A stretch of DNA of 64,000 nucleotides from Micromonospora sp. ALFpr18c (GTDB lineage Bacteria > Actinomycetota > Actinomycetes > Mycobacteriales > Micromonosporaceae), in NCBI RefSeq assembly GCF_008868155.1, contig NZ_WBKR01000003.1, positions 1-64,000 on the forward strand. Direction: 5' to 3'. Positions 14,614 to 27,291 of the stretch are shown piece by piece. Position 1 is the stretch's first letter. Each line of letters opens with the position of its first letter. The translations under genes and the position numbers were made by a program. Under the pieces are notes generated by a model that saw only the letters and a program-made list of their open reading frames with translations, searched no databases and was not told where the DNA came from.

Positions 14614-17375
<2,762 letters not shown>

Positions 17376-18263: not shown

Positions 18264-19432
18264 GTCGAATACGCCGAGTTCTCGTGCACGTACGCGTGAG
18301 ACAGGTCGTTGGTCCAGATCGTCGCGGCCGAGCCGCCGGCGTGCAGATCGATCCGGATGGTCACGTCCCGCCCGGCGAGGTCGACCTTCGACCGGTCCTC
18401 GGCGGCGGCGCCGCCCCGGCACACCCACACCCCGTTGACCGCCACGTCCACCCCGTCCGGCTCGAACACGGCGGCCGTAGTGCCGACCGCCGCGAGGATC
18501 CGACCCCAGTTCGGGTCGTTGCCGAACAGCGCGGTCTTGACCAGGTTGTTGCGGGCGACCGCCCGGCCCACCTCGACCGCGTCGTCCTCGTCGGCGGCGC
18601 CGACCACGTCGATGGCGATCTGCTTCGTGGCGCCCTCGGCGTCGGCGACCAACTGCTGGGCCAGATCGTGGCAGGCCATGGTGACCGCGGCGGCCAGCTC
18701 GGCCGGGGTCGGCTCGATGCCGCTCGCGCCGCTGGACAGCAGCAGCACCGTGTCATTGGTCGACATGCAGCCGTCGGAGTCGACCCGGTCGAAACTCACC
18801 CGGGTCGCCGCGCGCAGCGCCTCGTCCAACGCCGCCGGCCCGGCCACCGCGTCGGTGGTGAGCACGCAGAGCATGGTGGCCATCCCCGGGGCGAGCATCC
18901 CGGCGCCCTTGGCCATCCCGCCGACCGTCCAGCCGCTGCCCCGGGCCACCGTGGTCTTCGGCCGGGTGTCGGTGGTCATGATGGCCTCGGCGGCCGCCTG
19001 ACCGCCGTCCCGGGAGAGCCCCCGGATCGCCGACCGGACGCCGGGCAGCAGCTTCGGCATCGGCAGCCGCTCACCGATCAGGCCGGTGGAGCAGACCGCC
19101 ACCTCACCGGCGCCGAGGATCAGCCGCGGGCTGCCCGAGGTCAACGCGGCGGCCGTGTGCTCGGCGGTGGCGTGCGTGTCCTGGAATCCGGCCGGGCCGG
19201 TGCACGCGTTGGCGCCACCGGAGTTGAGCACCACCGCCCGGACCACACCGCCCTGCACGACCTGCTGCGTCCAGAGCACCGGCGCGGCCTTGACCCGGTT
19301 GGTGGTGAAGACACCGGCGACACCGGCGTCCGGGCCGTCGTTGACCACCAGCGCGACGTCCGCGCCACCGCTGGCCTTCAACCCGGCGGCCACCCCGGCC
19401 GCCCGGAACCCCCGAGGGGTGGTGACACTCAT
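18260..19432 (-). CDS. argJ: bifunctional ornithine acetyltransferase / N-acetylglutamate synthase
   Basis: The 390-residue Ntn-hydrolase recycles the acetyl group from acetylornithine to glutamate. The self-cleavage site is visible in [18 protein letters not shown] (about 175-192), where the Thr of ATML becomes the nucleophile of the beta chain. [13 protein letters not shown] near 67 is typical. The ATG overlaps argC's stop by 4 bp. ArgJ in the operon implies the cyclic acetyl pathway; a separate argA need not be present. Confidence 0.97.
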
Positions 19433-20430
19433 GGGGTAACCCCCCAGATCGACAGGCCCGTCGTCTCCGGCAGGCCGAACATGAGATTGGCGTTCTGGAC
19501 GGCCTGACCGGCCGCGCCCTTGCCCAGGTTGTCCAACGCGCTGAGCACGATCAGCCGACCCGAGTCGACGTCGACAGTCGCCCGCAGGTGGCACGAGTTG
19601 GAACCCAGCGTGGCGGCCGTGTGCGGCCAGCGGCTCTCTGGCAGCACGTGCACGAACGACTCGTCGGCGTACGCCTGCGCCAGCACCTCCTGCGGGTCGA
19701 CGCCGCGCGCCGGCCGCGCGGTGACCGTGGCCAGGATGCCGCGCGGCATCGGCGCGAGGACCGGGGTGAACGACAGGCCGGTCGCCCCGGACGCCTGCTT
19801 GATCTCCGGCACGTGCTGGTGGGTGCCGACCCGGTACGGCGACAGGTCGCCCATCACCTCGCTGGCCAGCAGGTGCGCCTTGGCCGATCGGCCGGCGCCG
19901 GAGGTGCCGGAGGCGGCGACCACCACCACGTCGGCGGGGTCGGCCGCGCCGTCCGCGATCAGCGGCGCGAGCGCCAGAGTGATCGCCGCGGCGTAGCAGC
20001 CGGTGTTCGCCACCCGGGTCGAGCTGGCGATCAACTCCCGCTGGCCGGGCAGCTCGGGCAGGCCGTAGGTCCACTGCCCGGCGTGGGTGCCGCCGTAGTA
20101 CTGCGCCCAGGCGTACGGGTCGGCGAGCCGGTGGTCGGCGCCCAGGTCGACGATGCGCACCTCGGGCGCCAGGTGGGCGGCGAGGGCCGCCGACTCGCCG
20201 TGCGGCAGCGCCAGGAAGACCAGGTCGGCGTCGGCGAGGGTGGACGGGTCGGTCGCACCGAGCACCAGGTCGAGCCCGGTGAGCTGCGGATGGACCACGT
20301 CGACGCGGTGCCCGGCCTGGCTGTGGGCGGTGGCGGCCACCAGCTCGAACTCCGGGTGCCCGGCGACCAGGCGCAGCAGCTCGCCCCCGGCGTAGCCGCT
20401 CGCACCGGCAACCGCGACTCGGATCCCCAT
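19429..20430 (-). CDS. argC: N-acetyl-gamma-glutamyl-phosphate reductase
   Basis: The 333-residue NADPH enzyme has the Rossmann start VAVAGASGYAGGELLRL and the catalytic cysteine in VANTGCYAAAITLAL (about 145-150). It is first in the operon. ATG at 20430 is preferred because GGAGG lies 5 nt upstream; a GTG two codons earlier overlaps that site. Transcription is expected from the ARG-box promoter about 30-55 nt upstream. Confidence 0.96.
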   Translation of the reverse strand: MGIRVAVAGASGYAGGELLRLVAGHPEFELVAATAHSQAGHRVDVVHPQLTGLDLVLGATDPSTLADADLVFLALPHGESAALAAHLAPEVRIVDLGADHRLADPYAWAQYYGGTHAGQWTYGLPELPGQRELIASSTRVANTGCYAAAITLALAPLIADGAADPADVVVVAASGTSGAGRSAKAHLLASEVMGDLSPYRVGTHQHVPEIKQASGATGLSFTPVLAPMPRGILATVTARPARGVDPQEVLAQAYADESFVHVLPESRWPHTAATLGSNSCHLRATVDVDSGRLIVLSALDNLGKGAAGQAVQNANLMFGLPETTGLSIWGVTP

Positions 20431-20457
20431 ACTCACCTCCGCATGACTATGCAGAGG

Positions 20458-20486
20458 AGATTAACAAGGACGACTCACTAGTGCAA
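20458..20486 (-). promoter_or_regulatory. argC operon promoter
   Basis: On the minus strand TTGCAC (20481-20486), a 17-nt spacer, and TAATCT (20458-20463) make a good sigma70-type promoter 28 nt before the argC start. The -35 hexamer is contained in the ARG-box region, giving a direct steric route for ArgR repression. Confidence 0.7.
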
Positions 20487-20516
20487 GTTCATGCAGCATC
20501 GTGCATGGTAATGAAC
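20481..20516. promoter_or_regulatory. argC operator: ArgR operator (ARG boxes)
   Basis: The stretch contains repeated ATGCA/TGCAT half-sites (minus strand CCATGCACGATGCTGCATGA, followed by TTGCAC). This is the AT-richest segment of the neighbourhood and matches the character of actinomycete ARG boxes. It overlaps the -35 of the argC promoter, and the operon it would control encodes ArgR itself. Confidence 0.7.
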
Positions 20517-20554
20517 AGATCGACCGCATCGCGATGCGTCCCCAAACCCGGCGA

Positions 20555-20962
20555 TCACGCTTCCGGCTCCTCGGGACGGGAAGAGCCGATCTCAGTCATC
20601 CGGTAGGAGCGGGTGTGTCGGGCGGGCCAGCCAAGGAACCGATCGAACATGTCACTGGCGCAACCGGTGGTGGTGGGGTTGAGCTTATGCAGGTCATCGA
20701 TGGCGTCATGGAGCAGACTGGCCAGACAGAGAAACAGGCTGACCGGGTTGCCGTCGTACTCGGTGACGAGGGCGAGCTTCGCCCGGCCGCAGGGCCAGGG
20801 TTGGCCACAGGCACGGCAGAGCCAGATCGGGCGCAGCGGCGTGTGCTCTCTGGGCCCGGAGTCGAGGCGTTGGGCTTGGGTAAGGCGCGTCGGCTCTTCC
20901 TGGGTCCGAGCGGCAGAAGACGCTCCGGTGGAGTCAAGCCGGTCTCGCTCCTGGGCACTCAC
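20555..20962 (-). CDS. small Cys-motif protein of unknown function
   Basis: The 135-residue protein has a hydrophilic N-terminus and then WLCRACGQPWPCGRAK (residues ~47-62), a C-x2-C-x5-C cluster suggestive of metal binding. A helical region follows (VSLFLCLASLLHDAIDDLHKL). Similar proteins in actinomycetes are sometimes labelled flavin reductase, for which I see no motif. The start is GTG at 20962, with GGGGGAAG upstream. It is divergent from the XRE regulator and reads toward the argC promoter. Confidence 0.7.
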   Translation of the reverse strand: MSAQERDRLDSTGASSAARTQEEPTRLTQAQRLDSGPREHTPLRPIWLCRACGQPWPCGRAKLALVTEYDGNPVSLFLCLASLLHDAIDDLHKLNPTTTGCASDMFDRFLGWPARHTRSYRMTEIGSSRPEEPEA

Positions 20963-21127
20963 TTCTTCCCCCCGCTCAATAGGTCGTGCTTGGAGTGGCA
21001 GCGGAACGGGCGGGAGCTCACGTAGTAGCCACGCCTTGCACAGCGGCTTCTGCTCTCACCCGTTCCGGCCATGCGTCTACACAAGCCCCGGCGATCGCTG
21101 GTGCCCAGCGCGGCAACGGCGCAGAAC

Positions 21128-21158
21128 TGACGCATCCCCATTGCGTCACACGGTGTGA
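21128..21158. promoter_or_regulatory. two overlapping dyads upstream of the XRE regulator
   Basis: A perfect 7-bp inverted repeat, TGACGCA (21128-21134) / TGCGTCA (21142-21148), overlaps a second perfect dyad, TCACAC-G-GTGTGA (21146-21158). Both lie in the divergent gap between the Cys-motif gene and the regulator, 47-77 nt before the regulator start. They are good candidates for autoregulatory operator sites. Confidence 0.45.
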
Positions 21159-21204
21159 GCTGGATGAATGGACCGTGACGGATGGCGGCGAAGGGAGGCG
21201 TTAC

Positions 21205-22371
21205 GTGGCGGATAGGCGTCGGCACCGGCTCGCCCAGCGCCGCAAGACGATCGGTCTGAGCCAGGAACGCCTCGCCGAAGCCCTCGGCGTGGACCGCTCC
21301 ACCATCGTGCGGTGGGAACGGGCCGAGACTGACCCCCAGCCCTGGCACCGGCCGCGTCTCGCCGCGGCCCTCAAGCTGTCGATCGAGGCACTGGCCGACC
21401 TCCTGGCCGATGTCGGCCAGGCACCGTCACCGCCCGACGAGCGTCTCGGCTACGTTCTGCGCAACCCCGGCCGCGTCGACCTGCTAGCTGTGGCGTACCT
21501 GCGGGAGCGCGTGCAGCGCCTCGACGAGCGCTACGACCAGACGCCCTCGACGCTCCTGCTCGCCGAGGCCGGGCAACTACACGGTCAGGCAGTCTTCCTT
21601 CGCCATCACGCCAGCAACGGGCCGGTTCAGCGCGAACTGGCGGCAGCAGTCGCCGAGTCCTCGACGTTGATGGGTCAACTCGTCTGGGACGCCTCGCAGC
21701 GGCGCGACCATGTCGCCAGCGCTGACTACTTCGACCAAGCGATCAGCGCATCCCAGGAAACGCGAGATCCCGTCACCGAGGCCAACGCGTTGCTCCGCAA
21801 GAGCTACCTCGCCCTCTACGGCACGAAGCAGCCCAAGGCCGGCGTTGTCCTGACCACCCGCGCCGCCGCCGTCAGCCACACCGACAGTCACGTCATCGCC
21901 GGCCTCGCCGAACTGCATCGGGCTGAGGCACACGCAATGCTCGGCCAGGCCCTGGACTGCTCCGACGCTCTCGGTACCGCTGAAGCTCACTTCGCCGCCA
22001 TCGACGCCCGAGACCCAGCCATGGACATCTTCTGCCCCAGCCACTACACGAGGCTCGCGGGCTCCTGCTGGCTCTCCCTCAACAAGCCAGACCAAGCAGT
22101 GCCAGCGCTCGAGAACGCCCGACAACTGATCGCCGCACGCCGCAAGTCCACGGCCGTCATCCTCGGCAATCTCGCCCTCGCCAGCATCCTCCAACGCGAC
22201 GCCGACGCCGCAACGTCCTACCTGCATCAGGCCATCGACGTCATCGAGCGGACCCGTGCCGGAGGCGGACTCAACCTCGCCTTCGCCGCCGCCCGACAGC
22301 TACGCCCCTGGCGTAACGAGCCCTCGGTTCAGGACGTGAACGACCGACTCCTCGCACTCATGAGTCCATAG
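21205..22371 (+). CDS. XRE-family regulator with TPR-like C-terminal domain
   Basis: The 388-residue protein has an N-terminal Cro/CI-type HTH (QRRKTIGLSQERLAEALGVD and RSTIVRWERAETDPQ, residues ~11-46). About 300 residues of helical repeats follow, consistent with tetratricopeptide-like helices (for example GLAELHRAEAHAMLGQALD). Such regulators often respond to a small ligand or peptide. GTG at 21205 has GGGAGG 6 nt upstream; the frame is open further upstream, but without a site. It is followed 10 nt later by the cyclo-ligase paralogue and is likely co-transcribed with it. Confidence 0.85.
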   Translation: MADRRRHRLAQRRKTIGLSQERLAEALGVDRSTIVRWERAETDPQPWHRPRLAAALKLSIEALADLLADVGQAPSPPDERLGYVLRNPGRVDLLAVAYLRERVQRLDERYDQTPSTLLLAEAGQLHGQAVFLRHHASNGPVQRELAAAVAESSTLMGQLVWDASQRRDHVASADYFDQAISASQETRDPVTEANALLRKSYLALYGTKQPKAGVVLTTRAAAVSHTDSHVIAGLAELHRAEAHAMLGQALDCSDALGTAEAHFAAIDARDPAMDIFCPSHYTRLAGSCWLSLNKPDQAVPALENARQLIAARRKSTAVILGNLALASILQRDADAATSYLHQAIDVIERTRAGGGLNLAFAAARQLRPWRNEPSVQDVNDRLLALMSP

Positions 22372-22381
22372 GAGCATCAAC

Positions 22382-23092
22382 GTGACCGACATCGACCGCG
22401 CCAAACACGCCGTTCGGCAACACGTATGGGACCTCCTCGAACGTCGAGGTGCCGTCCCACCCGGCGTGCACGGTCACATCCCTGACTTCGTCGGCAAGGA
22501 AGAAGCCGCAGCCCGCCTCGCGGAACTGGACGTATGGAAGAAGGCCCGAGTGATCAAGTGCAACCCGGACCGGGCACAACTTCCCGTCCGGGTACGAGCC
22601 CTGCAGGAAGGCAAGCTGCTCTACATGGCGGTCCCGAAACTCGCTACCCCCAAGCCCTTCTATCTACTCGACCCTGCCAGCCTCACCGCACCAATCGAGA
22701 CCGCAGCTACGAGTAGCGGTGCACTGCAGGTCGCTCCCACCGTGGGACCCGACGAGATGCGTCCGGTGGACTTCATCGTCTGCGGCAGCGTCGCTGTCAG
22801 CCGCCACAGCGGCGTGCGGGTCGGCAAGGGCGCCGGCTACTCCGACCTGGAGATCGCTCTCCTCACCGATGCCGGCCTCGTCACCACCAACACCGCCATC
22901 TCCACCACGATCCACCAGACCCAACTTCTCGATGAGGATCTGCCCGACGCCGACCATGACTTCAGGGTCGACTTCGCGATCACGCCGAACGAGGTAGTCG
23001 CCTGCAGACCCGACCGGGGACGGCCGTCCGGCATCATCAGATCAAACCTTCGCCAAGATCAGCTCGACAGCATTCCCATACTGCGCGCCTGA
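22382..23092 (+). CDS. 5-formyltetrahydrofolate cyclo-ligase-like (COG0212 paralogue) protein
   Basis: The 236-residue protein has the MTHFS-fold block VRVGKGAGYSDLEIALL near residue 157. True 5-FCL enzymes have a G-x-GGGYYDR loop; the GKGxGYxDLE form here matches the paralogue group that has been linked to thiamin metabolism rather than folate. The start is GTG at 22382 with AGGAG about 7 nt upstream, and the gene follows the XRE regulator. ATP-dependent ligase-type chemistry is possible, but the substrate is unknown. Confidence 0.75.
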   Translation: MTDIDRAKHAVRQHVWDLLERRGAVPPGVHGHIPDFVGKEEAAARLAELDVWKKARVIKCNPDRAQLPVRVRALQEGKLLYMAVPKLATPKPFYLLDPASLTAPIETAATSSGALQVAPTVGPDEMRPVDFIVCGSVAVSRHSGVRVGKGAGYSDLEIALLTDAGLVTTNTAISTTIHQTQLLDEDLPDADHDFRVDFAITPNEVVACRPDRGRPSGIIRSNLRQDQLDSIPILRA

Positions 23093-23180
23093 AGACGGCA
23101 GAGTGCCGGCTGTGCCGGTCTGTGATGGCGGCTTCGGCACGAGGGGTGCCTGACGACCGACGGGGTCAAATCCAGTCGGG

Positions 23181-23186
23181 TAGCGT
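23181..23186 (+). promoter_or_regulatory. candidate -10 for a leaderless HAD transcript
   Basis: TAGCGT fits an actinomycete -10, and the GTG start codon of the HAD gene is only 6 nt beyond. No ribosome-binding site is visible. This combination predicts a leaderless mRNA. A recognisable -35 is lacking. Confidence 0.3.
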
Positions 23187-23192
23187 CTCACT

Positions 23193-23864
23193 GTGTATCA
23201 GGCGATCTTGCTGGACCTGTACGGCACGCTCGTACACGATGATGAAGGCTCGGTCGATGACGTCTGCGTGCAGGTAGCAGATTTGATCGCAGTCGATCCG
23301 TCTGCTATCGCGGCAGAGTGGTCCCGACGGCTGGAGGCCAGCGCCGAAATGGCGTATGGGGCCGATTTTCGTACGCTCGCAGACCTGACGCTCGGCAGCC
23401 TCGCCGAGGCTGTAGCGAACTTCGGGGCATCCGTGGATGTTGAGCCAATCTGCCGGAAGCATCTGCAATCCTGGCGTCATCCACCGTTGTACGACGACAG
23501 CCGGCCGTTCCTCGATGCTGTGAAGGTGCCGGTGTGCCTGGTGTCCGACGTCGACCAGGACGACCTGACGGCGGTGCTGCGGTGCCACGGCGTCGCCGTC
23601 GCCGCCGCGGTGACCAGCGAAGAAGCCCGCGCATACAAGCCCCGCCCCGAACCGTTCCAGCTCGCGCTGGCCCGCCTCGGCCTGGGCGCCGGCGACGTGA
23701 TCCACATCGGTAACTCCGCATCGTCCGATGTCGCCGGAGCCGCCGCTCTGGGTATCGACACGGCATTCCTCGACCGTGCTGGAGACGGCCTGCCGCCAGG
23801 GGTCACGGCAACCTACACCGCGGCGACGCTGACGGCGCTGCTGCCCCAGGTGATGCCATGCTGA
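23193..23864 (+). CDS. HAD-superfamily hydrolase
   Basis: The 223-residue protein has HAD motif I as ILLDLYGTLV (nucleophile Asp near residue 8; the DxYGT form typical of haloacid-dehalogenase-like subfamily members) and motif II CLVSDVDQDD near 110. The motif III Lys is in ARAYKPRPEPF near 150, and motif IV is a modified GNSASSDVAGA near 172. It is a cytoplasmic phosphatase- or dehalogenase-like enzyme of unknown substrate. The start is GTG at 23193. Its 3' end overlaps the DUF523 gene by 7 nt. Confidence 0.88.
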   Translation: MYQAILLDLYGTLVHDDEGSVDDVCVQVADLIAVDPSAIAAEWSRRLEASAEMAYGADFRTLADLTLGSLAEAVANFGASVDVEPICRKHLQSWRHPPLYDDSRPFLDAVKVPVCLVSDVDQDDLTAVLRCHGVAVAAAVTSEEARAYKPRPEPFQLALARLGLGAGDVIHIGNSASSDVAGAAALGIDTAFLDRAGDGLPPGVTATYTAATLTALLPQVMPC

Positions 23865-24364
23865 AAATCCTGGTCAGCGGCTGCCTCGGCGGCGCACCGA
23901 TCCGGTTCAACGAGACCGGCGTGCCGGTCGCCTCTCCGATCTGGCAGCGCTGGGCTTCTGAAGGGCGCCTCGTGTCGCTGTGTCCAGAACTGGCCGTCGG
24001 ATTCCCGGTGCCGCGCCCGCCAGCCGAGATCGTCGGCGGCAGCGCGGCCGACGTCCTCGACGGCCACGCCCACGTACACGAAGCATCGGGCCGTGACGTC
24101 ACCGAACTGTTCCAGGCGGCGGCGCAGCGGGCGGTCGACAAGGCACTGCAAGCCGGCGTCGGGCTCGCCATCCTGGTCGAGGGCAGCCCTACCTGCGGTA
24201 GCACCTACGTTCACGACGGAACCTTCACCGGCGTCACCGTCGCTGGGCGTGGCGTCGCGGCCGAGGCGTTGCGCCGCCGGGGCATCCCTGTATTTCCTCA
24301 CTACGACCTGGACAGGGCAGCGGCTGCTCTGGCGGAGCAGGAACGGCAGCACGGCAACGGCTGA
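23858..24364 (+). CDS. DUF523 family protein
   Basis: The 168-residue protein starts MLKILVSGCLGGAPIRFN. It carries the family's conserved Cys positions: SGCLGG near 9, SLCPELAVGFPVPRPP near 41-55, and EGSPTCGST near 108-116. These cysteines could bind a metal or Fe-S cluster; function is undetermined in the family. It overlaps the HAD gene by 7 nt, so the two are translationally coupled. It is the last gene before the pheT terminator region. Confidence 0.85.
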   Translation: MLKILVSGCLGGAPIRFNETGVPVASPIWQRWASEGRLVSLCPELAVGFPVPRPPAEIVGGSAADVLDGHAHVHEASGRDVTELFQAAAQRAVDKALQAGVGLAILVEGSPTCGSTYVHDGTFTGVTVAGRGVAAEALRRRGIPVFPHYDLDRAAAALAEQERQHGNG

Positions 24365-24596
24365 CGCCCGCTCGTCGCGGCGTGCGCTATCACCTAACGC
24401 ACTCACATCGGCCAGATGCGCGCGTCGGCTCATCCGCCGCCGTCGCCATCGGGGCCTACGGAGGTTGACTGACCGACCATGCGCTGATCGCGCCATCAGC
24501 AGTTTGCCGCCAGTAAAACCGTGGGGTCGGCCAAACGGAGAAGGATGTCCAACGGCTCCCGAGCGCCCGAGCCACCACCGGCCACCGACGTACGCG
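24365..24596. other. gene-free gap between DUF523 gene and pheT terminator
   Basis: This 232-nt stretch contains no convincing gene, RNA or promoter. It is less GC-rich in places (for example CCAGTAAAACCG near 24510) than the core genes. It forms the right boundary of the accessory block inserted between argC and pheT. I found no terminal repeats or transposase remnant in it. Confidence 0.5.
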
Positions 24597-24599
24597 AAA

Positions 24600-24638
24600 A
24601 AGGCCCTGACCGGCAGATTTCTACCAGGTCAGGGCCTT
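24600..24638 (-). terminator. rho-independent terminator of the pheS-pheT transcript
   Basis: AAGGCCCTGACC (24600-24611) and its exact complement (24627-24638) form a 12-bp stem with a 15-nt loop. On the minus strand the stem is followed by a run of five T. This is the best intrinsic terminator in the window and lies 74 nt past the pheT stop. Confidence 0.85.
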
Positions 24639-24665
24639 GCTCGTTGGTGCGCCACCAGGGACCGA

Positions 24666-24704
24666 GCCCCGAACCCGCAGATTGAGAGATCGCGGGTCCG
24701 GGGC
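24666..24704 (-). terminator. second hairpin just after pheT
   Basis: GCCCCGAACCCGC (24666-24678) pairs with 24692-24704 with one mismatch, starting 7 nt past the pheT stop codon. It lacks a U-tract and may act with the stronger hairpin downstream or protect the mRNA 3' end. Confidence 0.45.
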
Positions 24705-24711
24705 CGCTCCG

Positions 24712-27291
24712 TCAGGCGCCGCGCAGGGTCGCGCCGAAGCGCTCGGCCGCGACGGCGACCGCCGCGTCCCGTGCGGCCACCGCCTCCTCGACGGTGAGCG
24801 TCCGGTCCGGGGCCCGGAACGTGAGCTTGTACGCCAGCGACCGCCGCCCTTCGCCGAGCTGCTCGCCGGAGTACACGTCGAACAGCCGCACGTCCTCCAG
24901 CAGCTCACCGGCGCCCGCCTCCAGCGCGCGGCCCACCTGCTCGGCCGGCACCGAGTCGTCCACCACCAGGGCCACGTCGATAAGCGCCGGCGGGAAGCCG
25001 GAGACCGTCGGCGCGGGCGTCACCGGGGTCGGCGGCAGCGCGTCGAGGTTCAGTTCCATCGCGCAGGTGCGGCGGGGCAGCTCCAGCGCCGCCACCACCG
25101 TCGGGTGCAGCTCACCGGCGTGCCCGACGACCGTGTCGTCGACCCGCAGCTCGGCACAGCGGCCCGGGTGCCACGGCGCGTACTCGGCCGCGCGCAACTC
25201 GACCCGCTCGTCGGGGATCCCGGCGGCGGCCAGCACGTCGCGGGCCGCCTCGATCGCGTCCGCCCAGCCGGCCGGTCGTCCCGCGCCCCACCAGCCGGCC
25301 GGATCGAGGTCGCCGGAGAGGACCACCGCGACGTGCACGGGCTGCGCCGGCACCACCGCGTCGGCGGCGGCGAACTCCGCGTCGGTGGGTCGCCGGTCCA
25401 CGCCCATCGCGGGCGGGCTGCCGGCACCGACGCGCGGGTGGAAGACCGCGCCGATCTCGTAGAGGGCGAGGTCGCGGTGACCTCGGCCGAGGTTGCGCTT
25501 CAGGATGCCGAGCAGCGGGCCGAGCAGCGTCGTGCGCAGCAGCGGCTCCTTTTCGGACAGCGGGTTGGCCAGCCGCACCGCGGGGCGGCGCGGGTCGTCG
25601 GCGGGCAGGCCGAGCAGGTCGGCCAGCTCCGGCGACACGAACGGGTGCGCGAGCACCTCGACGTACCCCCGCTCGGCCAGCGCCGTCGCGACCGCCCGGC
25701 GGCGACGCTGCCGCGGCGTCAGACCACGGCCGGGGGGCGCGGTCGGCAGCACCGACGGCACCCGGTCGTACCCGTCGAGGCGGACCACCTCCTCGACCAG
25801 GTCGGCCGGGTCGGTCAGGTCGGGTCGCCAGGTCGGCGGGGTGACGCTGAGCGCCGTCCCGGCGCCGCTGGCCACGCCGACCGCGCCCGCGTCCTCGGAC
25901 AGCCGGTCCGCGCCCTGCGCGACCGTGCAGCCGACCCGCTCCAGCAGGGCGACGACCCGCGCCGGCGGGTACTCGACGCCGACCCGCCGGGTGGGCAGGT
26001 CCGCCGGCAGGGTGATCGGGGTACGCGGACGGACGTGGTCGATGTCCAGGATCTCGGCGCTCGGCGTGCCGCCGCCGTGCTCGGTGAGCAGCCTGACGGC
26101 CCGCTCCAGCGCGACCAGCGCCACGGCCGGGTCGACGCCCCGCTCCCAGCGCTTCGCAGCCTCGCTGAACAGCTTGTGCCGACGCGCGGTCCGCCCGACC
26201 ATCGCCGGATCCCAGTGCGCCGCCTCGAACAGCACGGTGGTGGTGCCGGCGACGACCTCGCTGGTCTCGCCGCCCATCACCGCCGCGAGGGAGATCGGGA
26301 CGCCGGCGCCCTCGCCCGCGAGGGCGTTGTCCAGCCCAGCGTCGCAGATGACCATGTCGTCGGCGGTGAGCACCCGGTTGACGCCGTCCAGGGTGGTGAG
26401 CTTCTCCCCCGCCTCGGCGCGGCGGACCACCAGCGGCCCGACGATCCGATCGGCGTCGAAGGCGTGCATGGGCTGGCCCAGCTCCAGCATCACGTAGTTG
26501 GTGATGTCCACCGGCAGCGAGATGCTGCGGATGCCGGCGGTGACGAGCCGCTGGGCCATCCACGACGGCGTCGGCGCGTTCGGGTCGATGCCGCGGACCA
26601 GCCGGGCGGCAAATCGGTCGCAGCCGACCGTGTCGCGGACCTCCACCGGGTACGCCGGGGTCTGCGTGCCGGCCGGGGCGGGCGCCAGGGCCGGGTCGCG
26701 CAGCGGCACGTCGAACGCGTGCGACAACTCCCGGGCCAGGCCGCGCAGGCTCAGCGCGTACCCCCGGTCCGGGGTGATCTCGAGCTCGAACACCACGTCG
26801 TCGAGGCCCACGACCGGCCGCGCGTCGTCGCCCGGCTTGGCCGCCACATCCGGCGGAAGCACGATGATGCCGGAGTGGTCGTCGCCCAGGCCCAACTCCT
26901 TCGCCGAGCAGATCATGCCGGCCGAGTGGTGCCCGTACGTCTTGCGGGCGCCGATGGCGAACCCGCCGGGCAGCACACCGCCGGGCAGGATCACCACCAC
27001 CCGGTCGCCGACGGCGAAGTTACGCGCCCCGCAGACGATCTCCTGCGGCTCGCCGGTGCCGTTGGCGTCACCCACGTCCACCCGGCAGAACCGGATCGGC
27101 TTCTTGAAACCGGTGAGCTCCTCGATCTCGCGCACCTCACCGACGACGAGCCGGCCGGTGACGCTCTCGCGCAGGTCCACCACGGACTCGACCTCGATGC
27201 CGAGGTCGACAAGCGCCTGCTCCACGTCACCGGTGGGCAGGTCGGCAGGGAGGTCGACGTACTCCCGCAGCCAACTGACAGAAACTCGCAT
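24712..27291 (-). CDS. pheT: phenylalanyl-tRNA synthetase beta subunit
   Basis: The 859-residue subunit of the alpha2-beta2 PheRS starts MRVSVSWLREYVDLP. It shows the EMAP-like tRNA-binding domain (about 40-150), the B3/B4 editing domain (about 205-390), the B5 domain (about 410-490), and a C-terminal FDX-ACB anticodon-binding domain (about 765-858, PALIDVALVVDDSVPAEQV). Length is normal. It follows pheS by 41 nt. Transcription ends at the hairpins at 24600-24704. Confidence 0.97.
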   Translation of the reverse strand: MRVSVSWLREYVDLPADLPTGDVEQALVDLGIEVESVVDLRESVTGRLVVGEVREIEELTGFKKPIRFCRVDVGDANGTGEPQEIVCGARNFAVGDRVVVILPGGVLPGGFAIGARKTYGHHSAGMICSAKELGLGDDHSGIIVLPPDVAAKPGDDARPVVGLDDVVFELEITPDRGYALSLRGLARELSHAFDVPLRDPALAPAPAGTQTPAYPVEVRDTVGCDRFAARLVRGIDPNAPTPSWMAQRLVTAGIRSISLPVDITNYVMLELGQPMHAFDADRIVGPLVVRRAEAGEKLTTLDGVNRVLTADDMVICDAGLDNALAGEGAGVPISLAAVMGGETSEVVAGTTTVLFEAAHWDPAMVGRTARRHKLFSEAAKRWERGVDPAVALVALERAVRLLTEHGGGTPSAEILDIDHVRPRTPITLPADLPTRRVGVEYPPARVVALLERVGCTVAQGADRLSEDAGAVGVASGAGTALSVTPPTWRPDLTDPADLVEEVVRLDGYDRVPSVLPTAPPGRGLTPRQRRRRAVATALAERGYVEVLAHPFVSPELADLLGLPADDPRRPAVRLANPLSEKEPLLRTTLLGPLLGILKRNLGRGHRDLALYEIGAVFHPRVGAGSPPAMGVDRRPTDAEFAAADAVVPAQPVHVAVVLSGDLDPAGWWGAGRPAGWADAIEAARDVLAAAGIPDERVELRAAEYAPWHPGRCAELRVDDTVVGHAGELHPTVVAALELPRRTCAMELNLDALPPTPVTPAPTVSGFPPALIDVALVVDDSVPAEQVGRALEAGAGELLEDVRLFDVYSGEQLGEGRRSLAYKLTFRAPDRTLTVEEAVAARDAAVAVAAERFGATLRGA

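Follow-up and report, generated by a model that had tools for sequence, protein, structure and literature searches.

The stretch analysed here comprises 64,000 nucleotides of Micromonospora sp. ALFpr18c (contig NZ_WBKR01000003.1, positions 1–64,000; hereafter the window) and carries, in the spacer between argC and pheT, a block of five open reading frames. These encode a small cysteine-motif protein (CysP), a regulator with an XRE helix-turn-helix (HTH) domain and tetratricopeptide repeats (TPR), a cyclo-ligase paralogue (cyclo), a HAD hydrolase and the DUF523 protein TudS; the first three are referred to below as the triad. The block is a foreign-looking acquisition of composite content in a known kind of place, and it is likely to be a composite insert at the pheT-argC site, a hotspot of cargo across the genus, built by the steps and having the functions proposed below. 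The names of argC, pheT, pheS and other core genes are readings of the sequence rather than results of a family search.

An earlier note on this DNA, made from the sequence alone, described five genes of lower GC content in about 4 kb, and this description stands. The block genes have GC of 0.64–0.70, third-position GC (GC3) of 0.76–0.82 and values resembling a codon adaptation index (CAI) of 0.39–0.48, against 0.70–0.76, 0.91–0.96 and 0.68–0.80, respectively, in nine flanking genes, whose high CAI is partly by construction because the same nine genes served as the reference set. That no integrase is present was also borne out: neither integrase nor rep or tra genes were found among the five block proteins in Pfam, NCBIfam and PADLOC scans. 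The statement that no repeats mark the ends did not survive, as the 3' half of a tRNA-Lys gene lies at the pheT end. Support for the acquisition proposed in that note comes from composition and the tRNA scar, and from the fact that the site is near-empty in close relatives and holds other cargo in further genomes. The apparent left edge of the insert, placed where homology to the argC flank of relatives ends, is at about 20525–20553. Two candidate identities were discarded: an intact mobile element, as no integrase was found among the five proteins, and an anti-phage defence system, as PADLOC matches were confined to the HTH region of the XRE protein and the other four proteins had none.

argC and pheT were located in 151 Micromonospora genomes, including that of the window, and 136 could be scored (left out were G014, with argC unlisted, G094, without a pheT coordinate, nine with the genes on different contigs or strands, and G001, G064, G168 and G172, with partial matches; G153, with a pheT broken into two pieces, was kept). 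The spacer measures less than 350 bp in 38 genomes, 350–1500 bp in 6 and at least 1500 bp in 92, that is, it is loaded in 98 and near-empty in 38, with lengths that span 145 bp to 33 kb. The control distance from pheT to rplT is constant, 2211–2343 bp in 134 of the 136 (G153 left out, G115 absent from the listing). The close succession of pheT and argC assumed in the earlier note is accordingly true for 38 of the 136 genomes and not for the rest.

Cargo genes were called in 134 spacers (133 fetched plus that of the window), G142 and G170 being too long and counted by length only; the module strings are approximate, as CysP of the window and of some relatives escaped the custom gene caller, and domain matches refer to one representative per family. 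At least eight recurrent cargo modules occur at the site. They include module A (a Crp-like regulator, a weakly HEAT-like protein and two proteins without match), module B (an epimerase, glycosyltransferase and UDP-sugar dehydrogenase trio), module C (a BTAD-NB-ARC regulator, an ABC transporter and a signal peptidase), module D (a GH64 glucanase), module E (an NB-ARC/TPR set), an nSTAND pair and Lant_dehydr/YcaO genes for ribosomally synthesised and post-translationally modified peptides (RiPPs). Modules occur singly or stacked, and the orders A-B, B-A and D-A-C were all seen. The RiPP clusters lie in the spacers of G140, G131, G081, G072, G019 and G018 (L207–L212), and several of them also carry short Ser/Cys-rich precursor-like peptides. 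Near-empty spacers, for instance those of G128 and G152 (L100, L101), show an inverted repeat, with arms like CGCGATCTTGCA and TGCAAGATCGCG, where loaded relatives have cargo. A search of the open literature found no publication on a pheT-argC hotspot in Salinispora.

Three relatives retain scars in their spacers. In G143 a stretch matching 429 bp of the 3' end of pheT and then 154 bp of argC parts the triad from module C, in G096 shorter pieces in the same pheT'-argC' order lie between modules A and E, and G110 has a 103-bp argC fragment inside the spacer; weaker and shorter matches in G119 and G154 were excluded from the count. These scars suggest that homologous recombination in pheT and argC stacked the cargo, which would be a known mode: PMC5635113 describes chromosomal hotspots of horizontal gene transfer whose content is exchanged through homologous recombination of the core genes at their sides.

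Within the triad, the XRE protein matches PF01381 (HTH_3; 5.3e-10) and, over residues 83–391, the NsdA-family model NF053720 with 134.6 bits (cut-off 75). An XRE match ends 60 bp or less upstream of cyclo in 31 of 44 other cyclo loci, and the pair ranges over Micromonospora, Salinispora, Streptomyces, Saccharothrix, Nocardiopsis, Actinomadura, Haloechinothrix, Frankia and others. The remaining 13 comprise nine loci from metagenome-assembled genomes (MAGs; two labelled actinobacterial, the others from other phyla or unassigned), L254, where cyclo is full-length and an XRE match is absent, and three fragmentary loci. On the sequences compared, XRE-cyclo is a recurrent pair across actinomycetes, and CysP holds together with it in Micromonospora. 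Ahead of the XRE gene lies the non-coding element AACTGACGCATCCCCATTGCG; largely conserved in the 10 regions aligned, with substitutions in some, it is a candidate operator or promoter element. No publication linking NsdA to a cyclo-ligase was found in the open-literature search.

The cyclo protein belongs to the PF01812 superfamily (71.1 bits; gathering cut-off 27) and falls below the bacterial MTHFS equivalog model TIGR02727 (19.7 bits; cut-off 84.9). Its AlphaFold model (pLDDT 94.2) matches the MTHFS fold, with Z up to 16.8 over 179 residues (3hy6), and a profile built from 31 cyclo sequences found relatives in the PDB while one from six found no PDB sequence relative. The segment GYSDLE stands at the place of GYYDR in 1ydm and 2jcb, which we take to be the C-terminal motif of bacterial MTHFS (5-FCL). 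A standard bacterial 5-formyltetrahydrofolate cyclo-ligase was rejected on the TIGR02727 score and this motif; judged by the motif, the protein is presumably COG0212-like.

CysP has no match in Pfam, NCBIfam or PADLOC, and its predicted structure is poor (pLDDT 60.2). The gene lies directly upstream of AmcB in 30 of 30 AmcB loci (L260–L289), in the order CysP, AmcB, AmcA and pentapeptide-repeat gene. These loci are the best 30 of at least 35 matches in the genus, with identity of at least 72% (partial matches in G110, G014, G081, G150 and G156, at 68–76%, were left out), and L260, with 100% identity to L219, probably comes from the same genome. By eye, most AmcB loci with enough flank show a TPR-regulator-type open frame divergent from CysP. 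Among the cyclo loci, CysP (searched with that of the window) is confined to Micromonospora and Verrucosispora, and the following genes form a reduction series: L219 of Verrucosispora sediminis carries AmcB, AmcA and the pentapeptide-repeat gene after CysP, L229 an AmcB stub, G024 the pentapeptide gene only, and the window none of these, as tblastn of its spacer gave no AmcB or AmcA match and the pentapeptide-repeat gene is also absent. The best AmcB match of the window's own genome reaches 41%. Its neighbourhood places CysP in the Amc RiPP operon, no other gene of which is present in the window, and the direction of change would be loss of AmcAB. In G002 about 80 bp are missing near the 5' end of CysP, and the window's own genome has, within L304:4072–18925, a second CysP 4 kb beyond two tRNA-Lys(CTT) genes and, by eye, beside a different XRE-like gene. 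No publication on the AmcA/AmcB cyclophane proteins was found in the open-literature search.

The tRNA piece beside pheT shares 80–90% identity with tRNA-Lys 3' sequence in six related triad loci (L219–L223 and L229), where the distance between match and cyclo ranges from about 30 bp to 6.5 kb, and 84–85% with two tRNA-Lys loci elsewhere in its own genome, which has two intact tRNA-Lys(CTT) genes 10.5 kb apart and away from pheT. ARAGORN called no tRNA at pheT, the piece there being a truncated 3' half. In G002, G157, G028 and G024 the same piece adjoins the pheT flank, with the join at or near the anticodon loop; it is more diverged in G143 and shortened in G063. In all, seven spacers bear it, five with the triad and differing additions and two (G157, G063) with other cargo; by eye, the cargo of G063 includes a glycosyltransferase resembling one at the tRNA-Lys island of L223. 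Where relatives carry the triad away from pheT, a tRNA-Lys gene occurs in the fetched flank of L220, L221, L222, L223 and L229, and in L219 and L222 the tRNA-Lys 3' half follows within about 60 bp of cyclo. In Saccharothrix obliqua, XRE-cyclo lies in stretches of about 5 kb that have a tRNA-Lys gene at one end and a 3' tRNA piece at the other (L240:4576–9826; L243:6988–12142), and in L243 a tyrosine recombinase (integrase) fragment adjoins the tRNA. Of the 44 cyclo loci, 35 were scanned with ARAGORN (and all 44 with BLAST for the tRNA piece), and 7 of the 35 have a tRNA-Lys gene within the fetched flank of up to 8 kb. As relatives carry CysP, XRE and cyclo near tRNA-Lys, the triad of the window probably derives from a tRNA-Lys island. 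Integrases directed to tRNA genes cut at about the anticodon loop, and the join at pheT would have used, or imitates, an attachment-site core.

The HAD-TudS cassette has a separate distribution. It starts 10 bp past the cyclo stop and is found with 94–97% DNA identity at five other loci (L291–L295), at full length in two and as 1.20–1.28 kb in three, with the same right edge (24412) in four of the five; G078 has partial copies, and homology in one extends to about 24548. Cassettes occupy different positions in six Micromonospora genomes and have no obvious terminal repeats; their neighbours, by eye, include integrase-like genes (L305), transposase-like genes (L307) and plain chromosomal genes (L308 and L309). 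Of the 151 genomes, 12 have a TudS match, which in some is partial. Relatives without the cassette keep homology on the cyclo side up to 23101, and four have the triad at pheT without HAD-TudS, one of which (G028) has HAD-TudS elsewhere. TudS is absent from all 44 other cyclo loci, as is HAD save for one 31% match to a HAD-family stretch in a MAG (L247). The earlier note had suggested that the regulator and enzymes could be a small metabolite-repair or ligand-responsive module; acquired as a unit, such a module would let XRE-TPR sense a metabolite and control cyclo, HAD and TudS. Four genes in the same direction with short spacers and the low GC3 of all five speak for such a module; however, the lack of TudS beside XRE-cyclo elsewhere, the recurrence of the cassette alone and the relatives that have the triad without it make this very improbable, and the single five-gene module was rejected. 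A check for co-occurrence of all five genes elsewhere found the XRE-cyclo pair and HAD-TudS recurring separately.

For the composite insert the following course is proposed. The far end of a tRNA-Lys(CTT) island (tRNA 3' half, cyclo, XRE and CysP) would have been joined to the downstream flank of pheT at about the anticodon loop, as the shared anatomy of the relatives suggests. The AmcB-AmcA-pentapeptide part, absent from the window, would then have been lost, leaving CysP with its divergent regulator, and relatives may represent intermediates. Comparison with relatives shows the 1.3-kb HAD-TudS cassette as a separate piece between cyclo and the tRNA piece, and cargos of the site may have been exchanged and stacked by recombination through pheT and argC, as the scars in three relatives, and none in the window, indicate. 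Site-specific insertion at pheT is an inference from one junction because no second repeat, intact tRNA or integrase was found, and two other accounts of this junction were considered. One relies solely on homologous recombination or end joining, with a passive tRNA-Lys half and without a site-specific recombinase ever having acted at pheT, and is a serious contender on the doubtful side of even: it agrees with the lack of integrase in the block, with the scars, which show flank recombination at the site, and with a shared core of just 2–4 bp at the junction (by eye), but both the position of the junction, at the anticodon loop of the tRNA, and the common start of the extra 3' copies in L219, L222 and L223 at nucleotide 32 fit an attachment-site core. 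Entry of an intact tRNA-Lys element into a secondary attachment site at pheT, followed by decay to a remnant still able to act as a landing site, would explain the seven spacers with their differing additions or other cargo and the glycosyltransferase of G063; it is unlikely, as no integrase was recognised by eye in the seven spacers (without a scan by hidden Markov models) and a second attachment half was unseen.

Several observations weigh against the composite insert as proposed. On a tree from 300 bp and with 40 shuffles, the loaded or empty state requires 25 changes against a shuffled mean of 33.5, and the triad 5 against 4.9; the low clustering may partly reflect the short alignment. Clear pheT'/argC' scars occur in just 3 of the 96 loaded spacers searched, and the same search found no internal scar in the spacer of the window. 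The association with tRNA-Lys is a raw count in which the Micromonospora loci are mutually related, and the block has no integrase, intact tRNA or second tRNA repeat, its argC end showing no tRNA copy. At least seven of the 31 paired loci (L223, L233, L236, L242, L243, L244 and L255) have only a partial XRE match, and the identity of HAD is fixed at superfamily level only. The conserved part of CysP is open in five carriers at the pheT site, so that CysP may have a role without AmcAB.

With regard to function, the upstream element would let the XRE-TPR protein regulate both the operon it shares with cyclo and the divergent promoter of CysP. Cyclo may be an ATP-using enzyme of MTHFS fold that lacks the YYDR motif and whose substrate is another small metabolite. 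HAD matches PF00702 (1.3e-14) and, below their cut-offs, the HAD_type_II and YjjG models, while TudS matches PF04463 (119.4 bits against 34.7; 1.6e-34) and PDB entry 6z92 (E 4e-28), to which its CL, CPE and SPxCG cysteine motifs align. A HAD nucleotidase is a plausible partner of TudS, and together they would salvage or detoxify thio-pyrimidine nucleotides, functionally separate from XRE-cyclo. It is also conceivable, and rather far-fetched at present, that the tRNA-Lys 3' half is an ectopic attachment site linking two hotspots, through which island cargo, including regulator units of cyclophane RiPPs, shuttles into the spacer and is then shuffled through the genus by homologous recombination, XRE and the COG0212-type enzyme being a metabolite-sensing switch for such RiPP loci.

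Three features are unusual here: scars of stacking that can be read, a tRNA-Lys scar beside pheT and a connection of CysP and XRE with Amc RiPP loci. A densely sampled Micromonospora hotspot with legible scars makes the route by recombination in flanking core genes directly testable. The block also points to uncharacterised CysP, the first gene of Amc RiPP operons, and to a recurrent pair of a regulator and a COG0212-like enzyme, and it illustrates that adjacent genes of equally odd composition need not be one system.

Table 1. Features of the argC-pheT spacer and its borders (window coordinates).
Feature	Position	Strand	Remark
argC	19429–20436	-	left neighbour of block
Native argC regulatory flank	20437–20553	-	homology to G063, G157 and G024 ends at 20525, 20533 and 20553
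CysP	20555–20962	-	135 aa, motif WLCRxCGxPWPCG
Largely conserved non-coding element	21125–21145	none	upstream of XRE gene
XRE HTH and TPR regulator	21175 (or 21205)–22371	+	NsdA-family TPR part
Cyclo-ligase paralogue (cyclo)	22382–23092	+	236 aa; PF01812
HAD and TudS cassette	23103–24412	+	near-identical DNA at five other loci
HAD-IA hydrolase, nucleotidase-like	23193–23864	+	PF00702
TudS (DUF523), thiopyrimidine desulfidase homologue	23858–24364	+	PF04463, three cysteine motifs
tRNA-Lys(CTT) 3' half and downstream terminator region	24547–24688	-	tRNA nt ~33–76 at 24645–24688
Native pheT downstream flank	24689–24711	-	joins tRNA piece at about the anticodon loop; junction by eye
pheT	gene end at 24712		right neighbour of block

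Outside the block, a low-complexity repeat at about 16054–16200, at the argD-argF junction, gives the predicted argD frame a Thr-Pro/Thr-rich tail.

The components of the block resemble several known systems in part. The AmcA/AmcB cyclophane-RiPP cluster (NF041721, NF041718) shares CysP with a divergent TPR regulator, whereas the window is without AmcB, AmcA and the pentapeptide-repeat gene. Like 5-formyltetrahydrofolate cyclo-ligases and COG0212 paralogues, cyclo has PF01812 and the MTHFS fold, and it keeps the invariant N-terminal K8 and R12 and the Gly-rich loop of the cyclo-ligases; unlike bacterial MTHFS it has 236 rather than 187–200 residues and stands in an operon with a regulator. COG0212 paralogues were tied to thiamin metabolism by Pribat et al. 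(2011), according to PMC4120688 and PMC5041015, and the cyclo of the window is a candidate member. TudS enzymes prefer 4-thio-UMP (PMC10611767); the TudS of the window is like this desulfidase in its PF04463 domain, closeness to 6z92 and three cysteine motifs, and unlike the enzyme as described there in that it shares with a HAD hydrolase a cassette that occurs at several places in genomes. PMC3218068 describes actinomycete integrative and conjugative elements (AICEs) that lie in tandem in tRNA-Lys and reports NsdA-like XRE regulators within such elements; the tRNA-Lys gene near cyclo in 7 of the 35 loci scanned recalls such islands, whereas the five proteins of the block include no integrase, rep or tra product and only one tRNA 3' half is present. 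The hotspots described in PMC5635113 have in common with the pheT-argC site the constant core-gene pair, the high turnover of cargo and the lack of mobility genes seen in the block of the window, and the pheT'/argC' scars between stacked cargos fit their model; what sets the site apart from that description is that the cargo of one Micromonospora lineage also bears a tRNA-Lys scar resembling an attachment site.

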